From contig CANQBA010000034.1 in NCBI GenBank assembly GCA_947589545.1, forward strand, positions 1 through 41,382: a DNA stretch of 41,382 nucleotides, read 5' to 3'. Origin of the DNA: an uncultured Oscillospiraceae bacterium. GTDB taxonomy: Bacteria; Bacillota; Clostridia; Oscillospirales; Oscillospiraceae. Within the stretch, counting starts at the first letter, position 1. Every line of letters starts with the position of its first letter. This document shows, one piece after another, positions 33,941 to 41,257 of the stretch. The notes under the pieces are model-generated. The model was not told the origin of the DNA, ran no database searches, and was given only the letters and a program-made list of their open reading frames with translations. The position numbers were made by a program, and so were the translations under genes.

Positions 33941-33960
33941 ACCCGCGCAAGACGAGTAAA

Positions 33961-34066
33961 ACGGATGGGCAAAAGCCCATCCGTCAGCCTGCCGACAAAC
34001 ACCGTCCCTCGGCTTGGGGCGGTGTTTGTCGGCAGGCTGAAAGCAACCCGCATGGGTTGCTTTTTT
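33961..34066 (+). terminator. Three consecutive perfect hairpins after nifU
   Basis: ACGGATGGGC/GCCCATCCGT (33961-33984, loop AAAA) is followed immediately by a perfect 20-bp stem (33985-34004 with 34020-34039), then AAAGCAACCC/GGGTTGCTTT (34040-34063) with TTTTTT. The last is a classical terminator. The 20-bp stem is longer than termination requires and may be a repeat. Confidence 0.8.
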
Positions 34067-34094
34067 GATGCCGGCGACGATTCCGCTTACTTCA

Positions 34095-34129
34095 AAAATT
34101 CCCAGAACTGTAGTGGTTCTGGGAATTTT
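34095..34129. terminator. Bidirectional terminator between nifU and the XRE gene
   Basis: AAAATTCCCAGAAC (34095-34108) and GTTCTGGGAATTTT (34116-34129) form a 14-bp perfect stem with A- and T-rich outer ends, 5 nt from the XRE stop. Confidence 0.82.
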
Positions 34130-34134
34130 CTTTT

Positions 34135-34413
34135 TCAGCGGCTTGCTCCGGGGCTTTTTATGATGCTGTCCGGGAACATGGCGGCGTTGATGAGGTCGGC
34201 GGGATCTACTTCCAGGGCGTCCGCGATGTTGAAGAATGTGTCCAGTGACATACCGGTGACCATGTTCGGGGCTTCGATTGTGCTCAAATGTCCCCGGCTC
34301 ATTCCAGCCTTTTCCGCAAGTTGTTCTTGTGACATTCCGCGCATCCTTCGCAGCACACCGATAGCTATGCCAAGCTGAATAACTCTGTCTCTGTTCTTAA
34401 AGCTGATAGCCAT
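34135..34413 (-). CDS. XRE-family helix-turn-helix regulator
   Basis: Small Cro/C1-type DNA-binding protein of 92 aa. The helix-turn-helix spans about residues 18-72: LGIAIGVLRRMRGMSQEQLAEKAGMS followed by GHLSTIEAPNMVTGMSLDTFFNIADALEV. There is no extra sensor domain. AGGTGG lies 10 nt upstream of the ATG. It is divergent from the SLOG gene; an inverted repeat at 34428-34459 covers its own -10 box, so it probably represses itself and possibly the neighbouring operon. It marks the beginning of the accessory island. Confidence 0.9.
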   Translation of the reverse strand: MAISFKNRDRVIQLGIAIGVLRRMRGMSQEQLAEKAGMSRGHLSTIEAPNMVTGMSLDTFFNIADALEVDPADLINAAMFPDSIIKSPGASR

Positions 34414-34427
34414 ATATCTACGCCACC

Positions 34428-34459
34428 TTTCCTGAACAAATTATAGTATGAACAGGAAA
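34428..34459. promoter_or_regulatory. Putative XRE operator and XRE promoter -10
   Basis: TTTCCTGAACA (34428-34438) and TGAACAGGAAA (34449-34459) form an inverted repeat with two central mismatches and a 10-nt centre. On the minus strand TATAAT (complement of 34440-34445) sits in the middle. A protein bound here would block the XRE gene. Confidence 0.55.
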
Positions 34460-34486
34460 ATAACTCAGTCAGGCGTGCAATAGCAA

Positions 34487-34515
34487 TTGACTAATTTACC
34501 TAGCAATCGTATAAT
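34487..34515 (+). promoter_or_regulatory. Promoter of the SLOG gene
   Basis: TTGACT (34487-34492), a 17-nt spacer, TATAAT (34510-34515), 48 nt before the start codon. Confidence 0.75.
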
Positions 34516-34562
34516 TATAGAGATATATGTAGCCATCATGTCGCAAAGGAAGAAATAAAAAT

Positions 34563-35012
34563 ATGACGGTTACCTTTTGCGGGCACAGGACTACGCAGGA
34601 TACGCCCGAATTGCGGACGTGGCTTGCCGGCTGTGTTGAAAAGCTGATCTGGGAGGGCGCGAATACCTTCTACCTGGGCGGATACGGGAACTTTGACCGC
34701 ATAGCGGCCTCGGTGGTGTGGAAGCTCAAAGAGAAATATCCGCAAATTGAATCCGTCCTCGTCCTGGCCTATCTGGGGCGGGATGTCAACGCGGAGCATT
34801 ACGACAGAACGATGTACCCGGAGATCGAGGGCGGGCCGATGCGCTTTTCCATTGTAAAGCGGAACAGGTGGATGGTGGACAACAGCGATGTGCTGGTGGC
34901 GTATATCATCCTCGACAGCGGCGGCGCGGCGGATACCCGCAGATACGCCGTGCGCAGGAAAAAGCGCGTCATAAACTACAGGGAGGGGGACGTAAATGGA
35001 AACAGGGTATGA
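34563..35012 (+). CDS. SLOG-family (DUF1273-like) protein
   Basis: Small Rossmann-like protein of 149 aa that begins MTVTFCGHR, the start typical of YspA/DUF1273-type SLOG proteins. GGYGNFDRIAASVVWKLKEKYP gives the Gly-rich nucleotide-binding loop, and VDNSDVLVAYIILDSGGAADT matches the strand-loop found in the family's ligand site. SLOG domains bind nucleotides or nucleotide-derived ligands, and several are sensors or effectors in phage defence; the ligand here is unknown. The start has AAGGAAG upstream. The 3' end overlaps the next small gene by 17 nt. Confidence 0.8.
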   Translation: MTVTFCGHRTTQDTPELRTWLAGCVEKLIWEGANTFYLGGYGNFDRIAASVVWKLKEKYPQIESVLVLAYLGRDVNAEHYDRTMYPEIEGGPMRFSIVKRNRWMVDNSDVLVAYIILDSGGAADTRRYAVRRKKRVINYREGDVNGNRV

Positions 35013-35244
35013 GGAAGTCCGCGAGGAATTAAAGGGGTGGGACATCGAGGATCTGCTGTTTGGACTTCGTTGTGAGCTTAGCCTGTCGGGAAAGAAAAAC
35101 TACGACGCGGGCCTTGTTTCAGCTTACCTTGACGCGCTGGAGGAGAAGCTCCCCCAGACGCCCGTGACCGACGTATACGAGTCCTATGAGAACTTCAGGA
35201 AGAAAATGTTTGAAATATACGGCATAGAGCTTCCGCCGGCGTAA
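34996..35244 (+). CDS. Small acidic protein of unknown function
   Basis: 82-residue protein (METGYEEVREELKGWDIEDLL...) that I do not recognise. It is acidic and mostly helical by eye, with no signal peptide, membrane segment or cysteine motif beyond a single Cys. The ATG lies inside the SLOG gene with GGGAGG 8 nt upstream, a good ribosome site, and the 17-nt overlap means the two are translated together. It could be a SLOG partner. Coding status rests on the ribosome site, overlap and composition. Confidence 0.65.
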   Translation: METGYEEVREELKGWDIEDLLFGLRCELSLSGKKNYDAGLVSAYLDALEEKLPQTPVTDVYESYENFRKKMFEIYGIELPPA

Positions 35245-35294
35245 AGGAAACCGGGTCAATGATCTGCCGGCATGAGGCCGCGGCGTTTTCTGGT

Positions 35295-35325
35295 TTTGTC
35301 AAAAGTGTGAAAACACCTTGACAAA
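35295..35325. promoter_or_regulatory. Inverted repeat across the -35 box of the AAA gene promoter
   Basis: TTTGTCAA (35295-35302) and TTGACAAA (35318-35325) are perfect inverted arms, with GTGT...ACAC between them. The right arm is the -35 hexamer, so a bound regulator would exclude RNA polymerase. Confidence 0.5.
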
Positions 35326-35346
35326 TGCCGCGCGCCGGGATATAAT
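35318..35346 (+). promoter_or_regulatory. Consensus promoter of the leader RNA and AAA protease gene
   Basis: TTGACA (35318-35323) and TATAAT (35341-35346) are both perfect, with a 17-nt spacer. Transcription should start near 35353, giving a leader of about 150 nt. Confidence 0.88.
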
Positions 35347-35352
35347 GATTTT

Positions 35353-35483
35353 GTAAAAATTTATATTGCTTCAACCCCAGGCGCGTGGCGCGGTGTTGAA
35401 GACGTGTACGGCTGACATGAGCGTCCCGCGTTTTCCTGGTGTGTTGAAATCTGATCGCGGCAAGCTGATTGCCGCGTTTTTTT
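35353..35483 (+). promoter_or_regulatory. Structured leader with terminator: attenuator or small RNA
   Basis: CTTCAAC (35369-35375) can pair with GTTGAAG (35395-35401), enclosing CGCG/CGCG, or its TTCAAC with a second GTTGAA (35443-35448). CCGCG (35426-35430) can pair with CGCGG (35456-35460), which is the 5' arm of the terminator and so could act as an antiterminator. The strong terminator at 35456-35483 ends 18 nt before the AAA start codon, with no promoter in between. It does not match a riboswitch class I know. It may alternatively be an independent RNA of about 130 nt. Confidence 0.6.
35456..35483 (+). terminator. Intrinsic terminator just upstream of the AAA protease gene
   Basis: CGCGGCAA (35456-35463), loop GCTGA, TTGCCGCG (35469-35476), then seven T (35477-35483). 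Confidence 0.92.
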
Positions 35484-35501
35484 GTATGAAAGGAGAAAAA
35501 T

Positions 35502-38500
35502 ATGACAAAGAAATATGCACTTTCTTATGTGGGTGAATTCAAATGCGAGGATGAGGGGAGAAAAGGGTATTCAGAAGATCTCCGGGAGCCATGTATAATA
35601 GAGATAGACGAGGAGGCTGAGAAGATCTGGCAGCAAGAGCTTATTTGTCGCTATGCGGTGAGACTCCATGCGGAATTTAACGACTCGCTAAGTCGTGAAT
35701 CGACAAAACACAACGGAAGCTACACAAGACACGACAATAATGAGCCCATAGTTTGTTCTGCAGACGGTTACTATATAAAGGACTTGAGTTCCGATACCAT
35801 TTTGAAATATTCTTCCGAGCCGGAAAATATTAACTCTACTTACAGATTGTTTTTGGGCGACATAAGGCGGGCTCTCGCGCATGTGATGCTCATATGTCCC
35901 GATCACGTTAGAAGCCTCACATACCACGGAACGCATTACGAGGACATCCATGATATAACGCTTGAAAATCTGCATGTTACTTTTAGGGCAACAAGGACTA
36001 TTGGGAAAACGGTCCAGAAGGTCAAAATGGCGTTTCCCTTTCCCATTTATAAGCTTTCCTGCTATTATTACACGACAGGAGAGAACGGTGCGGACAAGAA
36101 GTTTGTTACCTTCAACGAAAGCGATTTTGATGAGTACGTGCCTGACGGATCCTGCTTGCGAAACAGTGAAATGATAGACCTTTCCGAGAGGATCCCGCTG
36201 TCCTTATGTTATGTGCGCGCGGATCGGGGCAAAATCATGGTCTGTGAGAAGCAAAAAAACGATAAGGAGGAATATTACAGCAGCACTTTAGAAGATTATG
36301 CAAAGCGGGTCCAGGCAGCGAAGGAGGTAATCAACAGAAAAAATGAGGAGAGTAAAAACGATCCTTCCGCCAAAACATATTACGTCAAACCCTTCTACTC
36401 AGATTCCGCCGAGTCACGTCCAGTGGATATTCGTTGGGTCAGAACCGACATTGATGTTCCCCACGTTATCGACGAGCTCTATGAATTGGAGGTCGAGGGA
36501 AAACAGGATCTGACGATCATCCCCTCGCCGGACGTTTTTGCGCTGAAACTTGGCTTGAGCGAAATGGATTATGCCGAATATGATCGTGACTGGATATCCA
36601 AACCACATTTGAGTCCAGAAAGAACAATAGATATGTTCTTTGGCAGCGCGTTGGTCGGCGGCAAGATGAAAAAAGGACTGTTCTACTATATTGAAGATAA
36701 GCTCACAGAAAAATACGCCTTTTGGGAGGATCCCGGCTCCGAAAAAGGGTCATACGGCATGACGGATATGATGGAGTCGCTTGTTCAAGGAGAAAGGAGC
36801 GATAAGGAACTTGAGAGGCCGACAGCGGACGCGAGGATCAGAGAGAAACTCAACGGCCTCCTGGAAACGCGCTCCCCCGATAACGCGCGACGTTTCTCCG
36901 AATTATTTGAAGAGAAAGTGATTGATCTTAAACCGTTTGATGACACCGATGCAGAGACAATCAGGGAAAAGCTGTACGGGAAAGACGAAAACATGGTTCC
37001 AAACGAGGAGGTGGTAGAAAAAGTACATGAGCAATACGTGATATGGAAGAATAAGGAGCCGAAAAACGGCAGCGCCCCCTCTATCCCCAACTTCGCCATT
37101 CTCGGCGCTCCCGGCACCGGGAAGACCACGATAGCCCGCGGTCTGGCCAAAGTCTTTGGTTACGACAATGAGCATCTCATCGTCAAATCCTCGGCTGATC
37201 TGAAGGGCAAGTTTGTCGGCCATACGCGCGACCAGGTATTCAAGATGCTGGAGGAGGCTGACGAACAGAAAAAGATCGTCTTTATTGACGAGGCGTACAG
37301 GCTCCTTGACGATAAGTTTGGGCAGGAGGCCCTGGCCATACTGCTCCCGGTGATGAGTGGAGACAGAAAGGCCATCGAAAGGCCGGTGACAAACTCATTT
37401 AATGATGCGGAAGACGATACGGGAGAGAAGGGAAAAAATTCCCCCTATACCTTCAAGAACGGCGCGCCGCCCATCTGGTTTGCCGGATACGAGAAGGAAC
37501 TGAGGACGATGCTCTCCGAGAACCCGGGCCTTTACAGGAGAATGACGATCCTGAAAATGCCGGAGCCCACCGCCAGCCAGCTCTATGAGAGCCTCCTGCG
37601 CAAAGCGGACGACACTCTGCGGGATGTATTCGAGCGGCCCGAGAACAAGACGCTCATCAAGAGCTACTTTGGCTGGGGCGCCAGCTGGGAGCACGCCGAG
37701 TACTTCGGCAACTACGGCGGCGTTGAGAGATTTTTGGATTCCTGCAAGGTATACATAAAAAGCCCAAACGAAACTGTTCAGAACAGGAAAGCAATAGAGA
37801 AGGTCATCAGTGACAAGAAGAACGAGATCAAACGGCAGTACCGCAGCGTCCTGTCGGCTCAGAAGGACGCAAACGGCAAAACCAGCATTTTCAGATTTGA
37901 GGTGGAGAGCGACATCGATACCACCTTCGATAACGTCAAGGGCAACGAGCGCGTCATAAACAGTCTTAACGAGATCGTCGATATGCTCCTCAACCGGGAG
38001 AAGTACAACGAGGCGGGCATCTTCGTACCCAAGGGGATGCTCATGTACGGCCCTCCGGGGACGGGCAAGACTCTGTTGGCCCGGGCGATGGCCGGGGAGC
38101 TCCAGAGGAAATACCGGAAAGATCAAAAGGATCTCCGGGTGGCGTTTATCCCCACCGCCTCCACGGAGCTCATCGACCCCTCCGGCGAACCGAACCGGAT
38201 CAAGTCCCTCTTCGCCCAGGCGGAGGATTACGACGCGGCCATCATCTTCATCGACGAGATCGACGGCATCGGGTGCAACCGGAACAGCCTCAACGCCCAG
38301 CGCACCTCTCTGTTTCAGCTGATGAAGGAGATGGACGGCTTTGAGGAGCGGAAGAACATCTTCGTCATCGCCGCCACCAACGCCCCCGACATTCTTGATC
38401 CGGCTCTCATGAGGGAGGGGCGCTTCGACAGGCATGTGACCGTCCTGCCGCCGGACAGGCAGGGCAGGATCGACATTCTGAAGCTGTATCTTAGCAAGCT

Positions 38501-39344
38501 CAGCGCCTGCAAGCTCTGCGACCGGGAGGATCTGGTGGAGGACATCGCCAAAGAGCTGGCCAAAAAGACCATGGGCTTCACGCCGGCGAAGCTCAAGAGT
38601 CTGGTCAACGAGGCCGCCCTCCTCTTTGAGCGCTGGGAGCCGGGCAAAACCGCCCCCTACGACCGCCAGGGCGACACGGAGGAGGATCGTTTCCGGAAGG
38701 ATCTTATGGAAATGATCAAGCGGGGCCTCATGGGAGAGGTCAGAACCGGCGGCAAAAAGGAGGACAATTTCACCGTTGACAGGAACGAGGGCTGGTCCGC
38801 CACCGCCATCCACGAGGTGGGGCACGCCCTGACCGGCAGGCTCCTGGGCCGGGAGATCAGCGAGATCACCGTCATCCCCCGGGGCATGGTCAACGGCTAT
38901 GTGGCGCACGTCCCCGACACTGTCAGGATCACAAAGCGGCAGCTGCGCCATGAGATCATGATCTCCCTGGGCGGCCTTGCCGCGGAGCAGCTCTTTTACG
39001 GCGACGACTTCTCCGCCGGCGCCTTCGAGGACATCAGGATGGCCACAAAGCGAGCCTATGATATGGTGACCAAATACGGCATGTCCGACGATATCGGCCC
39101 CATGGCGCTCATGTCCGAGGGCAGCGGGTACCTGGGAGAGCGCGGCGGCTTCGACTGCTCCGATGCCTTCAGGGAACGCGTTGACGACGCGGTGAGGAAG
39201 CTCCTGAACGAGTGCCTCTCCACCGTTCACGGCATGCTGTCCGCCCACAAGGACGCCATCGCCAGGATCGCCGAGATCCTGTTCGAGGAAGAGACCATGG
39301 ACACCGCCGCGTTTAACAAGACCTGTGAGAAAAACAACATCTGA
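35502..39344 (+). CDS. Dual AAA+ ATPase (CbxX-type + FtsH-type) with M41 zinc protease domain
   Basis: Soluble protein of 1280 aa, predicted to unfold and degrade proteins with ATP. Residues 1-500 resemble no family I know and show no membrane segment. The first AAA+ module has Walker A GAPGTGKTT at 535-543, Walker B VFIDEAYRL near 593-601, FGQEALAILL and WFAGYEKEL...NPGLYRR, as in CbxX/CfxQ/SpoVK. The second has GPPGTGKT at 850-857, IIFIDEID near 914-921 and MREGRFDRH with the arginine finger near 974, as in FtsH. The M41 domain keeps the zinc ligands H1104, H1108 (HEVGH) and D1177 (AFEDIRMAT). The two N-terminal membrane helices of true FtsH are missing. AGGAG lies 6 nt before the ATG. The first 1.5 kb is visibly AT-richer than the rest. 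The gene sits behind the attenuator-like leader. Confidence 0.9.
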   Translation: MTKKYALSYVGEFKCEDEGRKGYSEDLREPCIIEIDEEAEKIWQQELICRYAVRLHAEFNDSLSRESTKHNGSYTRHDNNEPIVCSADGYYIKDLSSDTILKYSSEPENINSTYRLFLGDIRRALAHVMLICPDHVRSLTYHGTHYEDIHDITLENLHVTFRATRTIGKTVQKVKMAFPFPIYKLSCYYYTTGENGADKKFVTFNESDFDEYVPDGSCLRNSEMIDLSERIPLSLCYVRADRGKIMVCEKQKNDKEEYYSSTLEDYAKRVQAAKEVINRKNEESKNDPSAKTYYVKPFYSDSAESRPVDIRWVRTDIDVPHVIDELYELEVEGKQDLTIIPSPDVFALKLGLSEMDYAEYDRDWISKPHLSPERTIDMFFGSALVGGKMKKGLFYYIEDKLTEKYAFWEDPGSEKGSYGMTDMMESLVQGERSDKELERPTADARIREKLNGLLETRSPDNARRFSELFEEKVIDLKPFDDTDAETIREKLYGKDENMVPNEEVVEKVHEQYVIWKNKEPKNGSAPSIPNFAILGAPGTGKTTIARGLAKVFGYDNEHLIVKSSADLKGKFVGHTRDQVFKMLEEADEQKKIVFIDEAYRLLDDKFGQEALAILLPVMSGDRKAIERPVTNSFNDAEDDTGEKGKNSPYTFKNGAPPIWFAGYEKELRTMLSENPGLYRRMTILKMPEPTASQLYESLLRKADDTLRDVFERPENKTLIKSYFGWGASWEHAEYFGNYGGVERFLDSCKVYIKSPNETVQNRKAIEKVISDKKNEIKRQYRSVLSAQKDANGKTSIFRFEVESDIDTTFDNVKGNERVINSLNEIVDMLLNREKYNEAGIFVPKGMLMYGPPGTGKTLLARAMAGELQRKYRKDQKDLRVAFIPTASTELIDPSGEPNRIKSLFAQAEDYDAAIIFIDEIDGIGCNRNSLNAQRTSLFQLMKEMDGFEERKNIFVIAATNAPDILDPALMREGRFDRHVTVLPPDRQGRIDILKLYLSKLSACKLCDREDLVEDIAKELAKKTMGFTPAKLKSLVNEAALLFERWEPGKTAPYDRQGDTEEDRFRKDLMEMIKRGLMGEVRTGGKKEDNFTVDRNEGWSATAIHEVGHALTGRLLGREISEITVIPRGMVNGYVAHVPDTVRITKRQLRHEIMISLGGLAAEQLFYGDDFSAGAFEDIRMATKRAYDMVTKYGMSDDIGPMALMSEGSGYLGERGGFDCSDAFRERVDDAVRKLLNECLSTVHGMLSAHKDAIARIAEILFEEETMDTAAFNKTCEKNNI

Positions 39345-39389
39345 GCGGTATATGTGTCCCGTTTCTATAGCATTAAGGAGGGGGTTTTG

Positions 39390-40361
39390 ATGTTCACGCC
39401 ATCTTTTCCCTATTCAGCGGAGGAGGCCGTCCGCCTGCTGGCGGCGGAGCTCTCCCCGGCGGACAAGGATTTGATCCTGATGACGCTGAACCGGAAAAAC
39501 ACGGAGAAGGCCCTGGTTGACGGCTGCTCTTGGCTGCAGATCCGGGAGGGCGGCGCAAGTCTGGATCCCCTGGATTGCCTGACAGTCGAGGACGAGGAGG
39601 AGCCGCCTCCGGAGGACGAGGAGGATGATGAGCCGGATAAGGCGCCGTTTGTGGACAGGCGGCTCAGGGGCAGAAACTCCCGGCCGTACACCAACATCTA
39701 CCTGCCCAAAAAGCTTCAATCCGCCCGGTTCCAATATCCGATGATCATAGAGGTGAACAGGAGCTTCGACGGCGTGACGGTTTCCGCCGGGGACGGCGGG
39801 GACGCGGATATCATTTACATCAACTCCGGGAGCACGCCCGTCAAGGTGGATGGAGAAAAGCTGATGCCCTACGCCCATATCCGCGTCAGATCCCCAAAAC
39901 ATCTGGAGGATCAGGCCTCCATTTCCGGCCCCGAGCAAAAGCGTTTGGCGCGCAGCGAGGGCGAGAAGATCGACTTCATGCTTCTCTCCTATCCCGTGGA
40001 GCACATGGCGGCGTGCAGTGCCGCCCTTGCCAGATTTCTCGACCACGCCGGCATGGAGAACGCCCAGGAGGTGGCCAAGGAGGATGTCTATCATGACGGC
40101 GGGTACGGGGAGATCCAGCGCCTCATAGAGGCGATCGACAAAAAGATCCGGCTCAGCAAATTCTCCCTGCGTCTGTCGGAGTACGACCTTGTCCGATTCC
40201 GTATAAGCCTCGCCGCCGGCCTCTATGGCATCCGCGTGGCCTACTACTTCGAGCTGCCGGGGTGGAACAACGAGGAGAGCAGGAGGGTCCTGCTGGAATA
40301 CCTGAAGGATGAGAAAAAAGGCGGCGTCCTCCTGACACTCCTGGAGCGGTATAACCTGTGA
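39390..40361 (+). CDS. Protein of unknown function downstream of the AAA protease
   Basis: 323-residue protein that I do not recognise. It has a short helical N-terminal part, a strongly acidic, proline-containing linker at about residues 67-83 (EDEEEPPPEDEEDDEPDK), a middle region with strands (YPMIIEVNRSFDGVTVSAG) and a charged helical C-terminal part (YGEIQRLIEAIDKKIRLS). There is no signal peptide or membrane segment. The start ATG at 39390 has AAGGAGG 8 nt upstream; a GTG at 39354 lies before that site and is rejected. It follows the protease by 45 nt without a terminator, so it is probably an operon partner such as an adaptor, regulator or substrate. The role is inference. Confidence 0.8.
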   Translation: MFTPSFPYSAEEAVRLLAAELSPADKDLILMTLNRKNTEKALVDGCSWLQIREGGASLDPLDCLTVEDEEEPPPEDEEDDEPDKAPFVDRRLRGRNSRPYTNIYLPKKLQSARFQYPMIIEVNRSFDGVTVSAGDGGDADIIYINSGSTPVKVDGEKLMPYAHIRVRSPKHLEDQASISGPEQKRLARSEGEKIDFMLLSYPVEHMAACSAALARFLDHAGMENAQEVAKEDVYHDGGYGEIQRLIEAIDKKIRLSKFSLRLSEYDLVRFRISLAAGLYGIRVAYYFELPGWNNEESRRVLLEYLKDEKKGGVLLTLLERYNL

Positions 40362-40444
40362 CCCTCTCGCGCTATTCTGATTTTTCCCGGAAATATACAT
40401 CGGCGCCGCTCCCGGCTTTGGGGGTGGCGCTCGTTTACGCTCTG

Positions 40445-40473
40445 GCGGCCCTGACCGGGGCCGCTTTTCTTTT
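40445..40473 (+). terminator. Terminator after the AAA protease operon
   Basis: GCGGCCC (40445-40451) pairs with GGGCCGC (40458-40464), followed by TTTTCTTTT. The rest of the gap 40362-40639 holds a weaker GCGCC/GGCGC hairpin near 40405-40430 and an AT-rich stretch (40580-40625) that could carry a promoter for the recombinase; nothing else was seen. Confidence 0.8.
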
Positions 40474-40660
40474 AAAGTGATTCTCTTCCCGGAACGATAA
40501 AAATTGGCTGTTCCCAAGGCGTTTCCCGCTTACATCTTTTCCGCGTCCGCCGGAAGGCTAATGAGGGAAAGATCAATTTGGTATTTGCCTCTTAATATTT
40601 ATTCGCGATAAAATTATAAGCAGGTAAAACGCCTAAAAGTTGCAAAAGGAGGGCTGCCGT

Positions 40661-41257
40661 ATCGAAAACTACGGTTATATTCGGGTCAGCACCCGCGAAC
40701 AGAATGAGGACAGGCAGGTCATCGCGCTGGCGGGGCACGAGATCCCGGAGGAGAATATCTACATGGACAAGCAGTCCGGCAAGGATTTTGATCGTCCGCA
40801 GTACAAAAAGATGGTGCGAAAGCTCCGAAAGGACGATCTTGTCTATATCAAGAGCATCGACCGGCTGGGCCGCAACTACGGGGAGATCCTGGAGCAGTGG
40901 CGGATCCTAACCAAGGAAAAGGGCGTGGATATCGTGGTGCTGGACATGCCCCTTCTGGACACGCGGCGCGGCAAGGATCTGATGGGGACGTTCCTCTCGG
41001 ACATCGTTCTGCAGGTGCTCTCCTTTGTGGCGGAGAACGAGCGCACCAATATCCGCCAGCGGCAGGCGGAGGGCATCGCGGCGGCGAAGGCGCGGGGCGT
41101 GCAATTCGGGCGGCCCCAGAGGAGCGTGCCGGACAACTTTCAGCTCATCTGTCAGGACTGGCAGGACAGGAAAATCTCGCTCCGCCAGGCCGCCATGGCC
41201 TGCGGGATGCCGGAAGGCACCTTTTATTCCCGCGCCAAAACGGTTGAAAAGGAGTGA
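40661..41257 (+). CDS. Small serine recombinase (resolvase/invertase)
   Basis: Site-specific recombinase of about 198 aa. The catalytic N-terminal domain has YGYIRVSTREQN with the nucleophile Ser, DRLGRNYGEI and the long E helix (FLSDIVLQVLSFVAENERTNIRQRQAEGI). The C-terminal helix-turn-helix is ISLRQAAMACGMPEGTFYSRAK. AAGGAGGG at 40646-40653 points to initiation at 40661, where the codon is ATC; counting that as residue 1 puts Ser at position 10, exactly as in gamma-delta resolvase. The open frame also extends to a TTG at 40640, but that precedes the ribosome site. The ATG may have mutated to ATC, or AUC may be used as a rare start. It suggests island mobility or DNA inversion. Confidence 0.85.
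   Translation: MENYGYIRVSTREQNEDRQVIALAGHEIPEENIYMDKQSGKDFDRPQYKKMVRKLRKDDLVYIKSIDRLGRNYGEILEQWRILTKEKGVDIVVLDMPLLDTRRGKDLMGTFLSDIVLQVLSFVAENERTNIRQRQAEGIAAAKARGVQFGRPQRSVPDNFQLICQDWQDRKISLRQAAMACGMPEGTFYSRAKTVEKE

Follow-up and report, generated by a model that had tools for sequence, protein, structure and literature searches.

A predicted membrane-free M41 protease with CbxX-type and FtsH-type AAA+ modules beside a recurrent SLOG module in an uncultured Oscillospiraceae bacterium

Results

A predicted membrane-free protease with two different AAA+ modules

We analysed a window of 41,382 nt, which is the entire contig C34 (CANQBA010000034.1) in the 3.83-Mb, 148-contig genome of an uncultured Oscillospiraceae bacterium (GCA_947589545.1). 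Its right part (positions 34,135–41,257; Table 1) encodes a 1280-aa protein that joins an N-terminal region of ~500 aa belonging to no known family, a CbxX/SpoVK-type AAA core (AAA1), an FtsH-type AAA module (AAA2) and an M41 zinc protease domain in one chain. This membrane-free AAA+ protease operon is unusual and of new architecture, and it lies beside an SLOG module that recurs without the protease. The explanation we favour, with moderate confidence, is a regulated cytosolic AAA+ protease operon on acquired DNA that includes an unknown partner, with the XRE-SLOG-small module and a recombinase as neighbours rather than subunits. Any function of the protein beyond the predicted proteolysis is an inference.

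The 1280-aa protein matches the Pfam families AAA (161.3 bits) and Peptidase_M41 (142.6 bits). The SpoVK, EccA and CbbX models cover approximately residues 524–624, and FtsH_fam covers residues 801–1269. The Walker motifs of both AAA modules are intact, as is the HEXXH zinc site, and Asp1177 of the GAFED segment, which we take to be the third zinc ligand, aligns with the corresponding Asp in 13 FtsH proteins. The highest 19-residue Kyte-Doolittle mean is 1.02, and no membrane segment is predicted. These data agree with the original prediction, which described a soluble giant protease with CbxX-type and FtsH-type AAA+ modules. An open frame of 617 codons runs opposite the protease gene on the minus strand (37,395–39,248); we regard it as a probable codon-bias shadow.

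The two AAA modules differ in their pore loops. Pore loop 1 reads (F/Y)VGVG in all 13 aligned FtsH proteins, comprising the FtsH of the same genome, 11 loci from the phylum-genome search (L002 and L039 among these 13 FtsH rows rather than in the CbxX-type alignment) and one from a viral contig, whereas AAA2 carries ID--PSGEP, which is two residues shorter. AAA1 has the pore motif FVG, and the three usefully aligned CbxX-type proteins read FVG, FVG and YVG; L007 and L009 were left out of this comparison as wrong-frame fragments.

Comparison with known AAA+ systems

The protein resembles FtsH (TIGR01241, M41) in the order of AAA2 and M41, in 35–38% identity to the 13 FtsH proteins, and in its ATPase and zinc motifs, the latter including both HEXXH and the distal Asp. 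It differs from FtsH in several respects: it scores 369.7 bits against a whole-protein cut-off of 600, the (F/Y)VGVG pore loop is replaced, and an extra AAA module together with a 500-aa N-terminus takes the place of the N-terminal membrane anchor. The likeness to CbbX, SpoVK and EccA involves the first AAA core, the (F/Y)VGxT pore segment and an NPGL...R segment, which we take to be the arginine finger. The protease fusion and an insert of ~30 residues set the protein apart from these families, whose models give 61–71 bits against cut-offs of 423–467 (CbbX, 60.7 against 459; SpoVK, 71.1 against 423). An unnamed phage family, phrog_30773, matches the FtsH-type AAA and protease at 297.6 bits, with its best stretch at residues 798–1275, leaving AAA1 and the N-terminus uncovered.

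Two AAA modules with unequal pore loops are also found in p97/Cdc48 and other type II AAA+ unfoldases. Only D2 of eukaryotic Cdc48 has aromatic pore residues (PMC7226402); the 1280-aa protein, in contrast, keeps the aromatic pore in the N-proximal module and carries the protease in the same chain. The vWA-MoxR ternary conflict systems, as described in a 2020 eLife paper (PMC7159879), include a component with two FtsH-type AAA modules. This component resembles our protein in having two AAA modules per protein, the second of FtsH type, and sometimes an extra N-terminal domain. Its first AAA, however, is of FtsH type and dead, whereas that of the 1280-aa protein is of CbxX type with intact Walker motifs.

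Such conflict systems bring phage or plasmid defence into consideration, in which the N-terminus would sense an invader protein, the protease would destroy the invader or a host factor, and SLOG would supply or read a nucleotide signal. Besides the published two-FtsH-type-AAA proteins, the foreign-looking third-codon-position GC content (GC3) and the variable surroundings described below speak for it, as do PADLOC matches on AAA2 by IetA (111 bits, E 1.8e-32; no cut-off shown) and TRIP13 (67 bits). These matches, however, look like the shared AAA fold, and we read the IetA match in this way because FtsH_fam scores 370 bits on the same module. IetAS defence is an AAA and protease pair with a subtilase partner. 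The IteA model (NF042959) gives 85.1 bits against a cut-off of 510, and the partner protein of our operon has no Pfam match. Moreover, none of the six proteins of the region has a Pfam match to a vWA, MoxR, subtilase or nuclease family, which places the operon outside the vWA-MoxR-FtsH ternary systems; SLOG recurs without the protease, and a recurrent neighbourhood could not be shown. We consider defence possible but unlikely.

Homologue searches

The genome sets searched overlap one another and include the source genome; negatives refer to relatives beyond the window itself. No relative of the N-terminus was found in 391 class genomes or 300 family genomes, and none of residues 1–815 in 113 order genomes at E 1e-12. 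With residues 1–746 as query against 99 relatives, 80 genomes gave matches at E 1e-3, and among the matches listed outside the window all fall within residues 415–688. When the part from AAA1 to M41 was searched against 398 phylum genomes (two candidates scored per genome), the matches listed involve the FtsH part only. In tblastn with the whole protease, 1323 plasmid and 113 phage records match, none over 80% of the query, and among the 20 matches listed for each set all lie in the FtsH part. Against the solved structures, the best match of the N-terminus (E 0.075) is insignificant. Viral contigs yielded a single M41 locus, L148, which is an ordinary FtsH by frame and motifs.

The partner likewise has no relative in 295 order genomes, and neither it nor the N-terminus has a plasmid or phage match at E 0.1. 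Peptide-pattern scans, which see close relatives only, gave no relative of the N-terminus or partner in viral_contigs and none of residues 605–815 in genome_contigs. The absence of relatives carries fair weight within the sampled order and family but little beyond them, because short exact peptides were the only queries used on the very large collections. In the literature, with most subscription journals outside the scope of the search, no title or abstract opening describes a CbxX-FtsH-M41 fusion or SLOG together with M41.

The partner protein

The second gene of the operon encodes an acidic-linker protein of 323 aa when started at ATG 39390, which is preceded by a strong ribosome site, GGAGGGGG; the alternative start, GTG 39354, would give 335 aa. 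The gap to the protease gene is accordingly 45 nt or 9 nt, with no terminator-like site listed within it. The protein matches no Pfam family, its best NCBIfam match has E 0.11, PHROGs give none at E 0.1, and its best match to a solved structure (E 0.07) is insignificant, in keeping with the earlier designation as an unknown partner. The partnership with the protease is proposed from gene order alone.

Promoter, candidate operator and leader RNA of the protease operon

Twelve promoter-like sites were found in the stretch against 3.9 expected, and the two best are those of SLOG and the protease. The protease promoter matches the consensus at all positions, and its -35 is overlapped by an inverted repeat, whose 8-nt arms are of modest significance, reached in 67 of 2000 simulations. 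Between this promoter and the protease gene lies a proposed 5' leader RNA that ends in a terminator-like hairpin with seven T, directly followed by the ribosome site. The leader RNA of the original prediction is borne out by this promoter and hairpin.

In the most stable fold of the leader, positions 35,370–35,381 pair with 35,435–35,448, and the GC-rich hairpin with its seven T comes next; z values are -2.3 and -2.9 for the leader of the window cut in two ways. Two more copies of the 5' block (35,356–35,401) exist in the same genome, at C2:51679-51726 (minus strand; L051) and C5:42460-42507 (plus strand; L052), and are near-identical to each other. A TTGACA box precedes each copy, and a GC-rich hairpin with a run of T follows it, as judged by eye and by folding. 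The CAACCCC segment that takes part in a local 5' hairpin (see Discussion) can instead form a longer pairing with a segment downstream; this pairing is part of the minimum-energy folds for the window and C5 leaders, and the C2 leader shows it in shortened form in its centroid. A leader peptide was set aside, as the reading frames disagree by eye across a 2-nt alignment gap. Alternatively, the 5' block may act not as RNA but as a DNA-binding site.

Behind each of the C2 and C5 blocks lies a long gene with CxxC repeats. The two are mutually paralogous, with longest frames of 634 and 613 aa, and have relatives in 2 of 118 other genomes, both weak (E 1.5e-8 and 1.4e-4). We call them zinc-ribbon genes by eye, no Pfam family being above cut-off. 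At L318:4592-6433 and L319:6692-8596 we observed a tandemly repeated domain whose end reads CExCGxPG...LCDxC and which has no Pfam family above cut-off (L318 tested). Behind the C2 gene (L319:3860-6421, minus strand), Pfam identifies XRE-PIN-ankyrin, radical SAM and small P-loop proteins, by our reading a conflict-type cassette.

A model of the leader (R1) matches only the source genome among 149 genomes under strict filters. A DNA pattern for the leader picks out 36 loci in genome_contigs, of which the best from elsewhere scores 22.8 bits against 66–80 bits for the three own copies; two that were examined closely, L182 and L196, look like coding sequence, and no convincing copy emerged from this collection. 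A stricter DNA pattern found none in viral contigs. With Rfam 15 at the gathering score, only a T-box leader at the left end of the contig (503–723, minus strand, 106.8 bits) passes in the window, and the best score for the protease leader is 16.9 bits (E 2.5).

The XRE-SLOG-small module

Upstream of the protease operon, a divergent XRE regulator, an SLOG gene and a small gene overlapping the SLOG end appear to form a second unit, to which the XRE regulator probably belongs. The SLOG protein resembles YpsA-like SLOG proteins (PF06908) and passes the gathering cut-off of 27.7 marginally, at 27.9 bits; to this extent the earlier call of an SLOG protein holds. The SLOG gene probably lies outside the protease operon. 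The small protein has no Pfam match.

SLOG matches occur in 60 of 99 genomes, the source genome counted. Thirteen additional SLOG loci, represented by stretches between 3.3 and 15.5 kb long, were compared at E 1e-3; they are the best matches listed apart from G027:C100, which is cut at its contig end. An XRE relative lies within the stretch at 7 of them: divergent and adjacent to SLOG, with 77–89% identity, in L123, L127 and L128; 1.5–2 kb from SLOG, with 43–46% identity, in L131, L132 and L134; and ~5 kb away and weak in L129. The small protein appears at one locus, L122 (a 3.3-kb contig), behind SLOG and 72% identical, while protease, partner and recombinase are found at none of the 13. Short genes overlap or closely follow SLOG at 8 of the 14 loci, the window counted: the 82-aa type in the window and L122, and a ~150-aa type ending in YYTHRxxVxGxE in L123, L128, L131, L132 and L134, and in L125, where it is shortened by the cut.

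The XRE-SLOG gaps of L123, L127, L128 and the window align with 68% mean identity. TTGACT and ATTATAGTAT are invariant among the four, and the -10 is variable. The TAGCAA repeats are partly kept, AGCA being invariant in the second copy and the first copy variable; the promoter region of the protease has no TAGCAA. Of the divergent XRE gene with an operator-like repeat described originally, the arrangement stands, and there are now two candidate operators, the TAGCAA direct repeats and the inverted repeat at the protease -35, the latter with the modest arms noted above.

L129 and L130 have a relaxase in common (PF03432 at 114 bits in L129, the one tested), and an actin-like gene, which we label ParM-type, is shared by L131, L132 and L134 (L131 tested). 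Part of the SLOG modules are therefore carried by mobile elements. Mobile-element housekeeping, in which excision or transfer would be controlled by proteolytic removal of a repressor or a host protein and the recombinase would act in the same element, could draw on these relaxase and actin-like neighbours, on the phage-type recombinase that adjoins the operon, and on the second SLOG of the genome (L132), which is in such a setting. Against it, none of the six proteins belongs to a relaxase, coupling-protein, large-integrase or phage structural family, the promoters are separate, and no attachment-site repeats were identified; we hold it to be as improbable as defence.

Transcription units and genomic setting

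All six open reading frames on which the original prediction was built are present (Table 1). The recombinase matches PF00239 and phrog_125 (DNA invertase), and its 13 relatives in viral contigs have none of the other five genes in the stretches fetched. From the promoters and terminator-like sites, SLOG, the protease operon and the recombinase appear to be transcribed separately. The six genes are thus probably not one system, contrary to what had been proposed: relatives carry the XRE-SLOG pair together with its promoter region but lack the protease next to it; the repeat at the protease operon is a different one, and this operon has a separate promoter and is followed, past the partner gene, by a terminator-like hairpin; and the recombinase has relatives of its own. 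The one-system reading was set aside on the separate promoters and the SLOG loci without protease.

NifS-, NadA- and NifU-like genes (named by eye) just left of the region are 80–99% identical to copies in 13 genus relatives, and the contig is therefore part of the lineage of this genome. From position 33,941 onward the GC content is 54.4%, against 64.1% upstream, and GC3 is 62–82% in the six genes against 85–90% in nine other genes of the window, which makes the region foreign-looking. The genes after nifU in the window cluster with none in the 13 relatives examined (13 of 18 other good NifU matches), and no empty site was found after nifU among them. The relatives themselves show several arrangements, with common genes within L136/L137/L141, L139/L140 and L143/L144; a few gene clusters also link these groups, and the remaining six relatives share none. 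Two inverted repeats lie at positions 33,984–34,129, after nifU and near the left edge of the low-GC stretch: one of 25 nt (96%) and one of 14 nt, which is perfect and has a T-rich tail. The region appears to be acquired, variable DNA with at least three cassettes, each with its own promoter. The foreign-looking composition upholds one half of the earlier term compact island; compactness is another matter, as the contig ends at 41,382, 125 nt past the recombinase, and no right boundary is seen.

Table 1 Features of the protease region in the window
Feature	Position	Strand	Basis
XRE (HTH_3) regulator	34135..34413	-	Pfam HTH_3 37.9 bits
TAGCAA direct repeats around -35 of SLOG promoter, candidate XRE operator	34481..34506	.	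XRE-SLOG gap
Sigma-70-type SLOG promoter, TTGACT-17-TATAAT	34487..34515	+	11/12 consensus matches; divergent from XRE
SLOG (YpsA-like) protein, 149 aa	34563..35012	+	PF06908
Small protein, 82 aa, overlaps SLOG end	34996..35244	+	ORF
Inverted repeat TTTGTCAA...TTGACAAA overlapping protease -35, candidate operator	35295..35325	.	8-nt arms
Consensus sigma-70 promoter of protease operon, TTGACA-17-TATAAT	35318..35346	+	12/12 matches, spacer 17
Proposed 5' leader RNA (putative start ~35353)	35353..35501	+	Promoter, hairpins, ribosome site
Terminator-like hairpin in leader, seven T	35456-35476 (to 35483 with T run)	+	Just before ribosome site
Ribosome site of protease	35488-35501	+	Directly after leader hairpin
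Membrane-free tandem-AAA+ M41 protease, 1280 aa	35502..39344	+	Pfam, NCBIfam, motif alignments
N-terminal region, residues 1-520	35502..37061	+	No relative found
AAA1 core, CbxX/SpoVK type, residues 524-624	37071..37373	+	Walker A GAPGTGKT 535, pore FVG 571, Walker B IVFIDEA 592
AAA2, FtsH type	37902..38795	+	Walker A 850, Walker B 914, GRFDR 973; pore loop ID--PSGEP
M41 zinc protease domain	38796..39317	+	HEVGH 1104-1108; GAFED 1173-1177 with D1177
Acidic-linker partner, 323 aa, second gene of operon	39390..40361	+	ATG 39390; no relative found
Terminator-like hairpin after partner gene	40444..40465	+	9-pair stem then TTTCTTTT
Phage-type serine recombinase (resolvase/invertase)	40640..41257	+	PF00239 101.3 bits; phrog_125 DNA invertase 174.7 bits

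Discussion

Our data lead us to propose how a regulated cytosolic protease operon might work. The protease would form a hexamer in which two stacked ATPase rings sit on a protease ring. The N-terminus, and perhaps also the 323-aa partner, would select substrates. By analogy with known AAA+ machines, the CbxX-type ring, which has kept its aromatic pore loop, would grip and unfold them, while the FtsH-type ring, whose pore loop is lost, would act mainly as an ATP-driven gate or spacer before the M41 chamber. A repressor bound to the -35 inverted repeat, together with termination in the leader, probably keeps expression low until a signal releases the operon.

Several observations weigh against this explanation. 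The collections searched gave no homologue for either the N-terminus or the partner, so that the operon, the role of the partner and the loss of the pore loop rest on one sequence, and the fold of the partner predicted without an alignment reaches a pLDDT of 36 and was left unused. The 12 terminator-like sites in the stretch are barely above chance (8.1 expected, standard deviation 3.1), and the absence of a listed one from the small gene up to the protease promoter leaves room for read-through. In the leader, the 5' hairpin (35,369–35,401) occurs only in the fold of the isolated 5' end and in none of three whole-leader minimum-energy folds, and the three leader copies, two of them nearly identical, are too few for covariation. 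The unseen right boundary belongs here as well. Finally, the gene could be a decaying or chimeric fusion, that is, a diverged FtsH copy joined to a CbxX gene without selected function, as its single occurrence and lost AAA2 pore loop might suggest; the 1280 open codons, both intact Walker pairs, GRFDR and HEXXH, together with the perfect consensus promoter and the ribosome site in place, make this very improbable.

A more far-reaching version of the proposal is that the soluble double-ring metalloprotease, with a CbxX ring that unfolds and an FtsH ring that serves as gate, would be a conflict effector armed by an undescribed leader RNA that also precedes the two CxxC-repeat genes. We regard this as a long shot. 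The findings argue against counting the SLOG gene as a component of the machine.

If the explanation of a regulated protease operon holds, a small regulon for the undescribed leader might emerge. The protein itself would unite two different AAA+ motor rings and a protease in one membrane-free chain, with the gripping loops retained in the N-proximal ring. This would be the reverse of eukaryotic p97/Cdc48 and would allow a direct test of which ring pulls.

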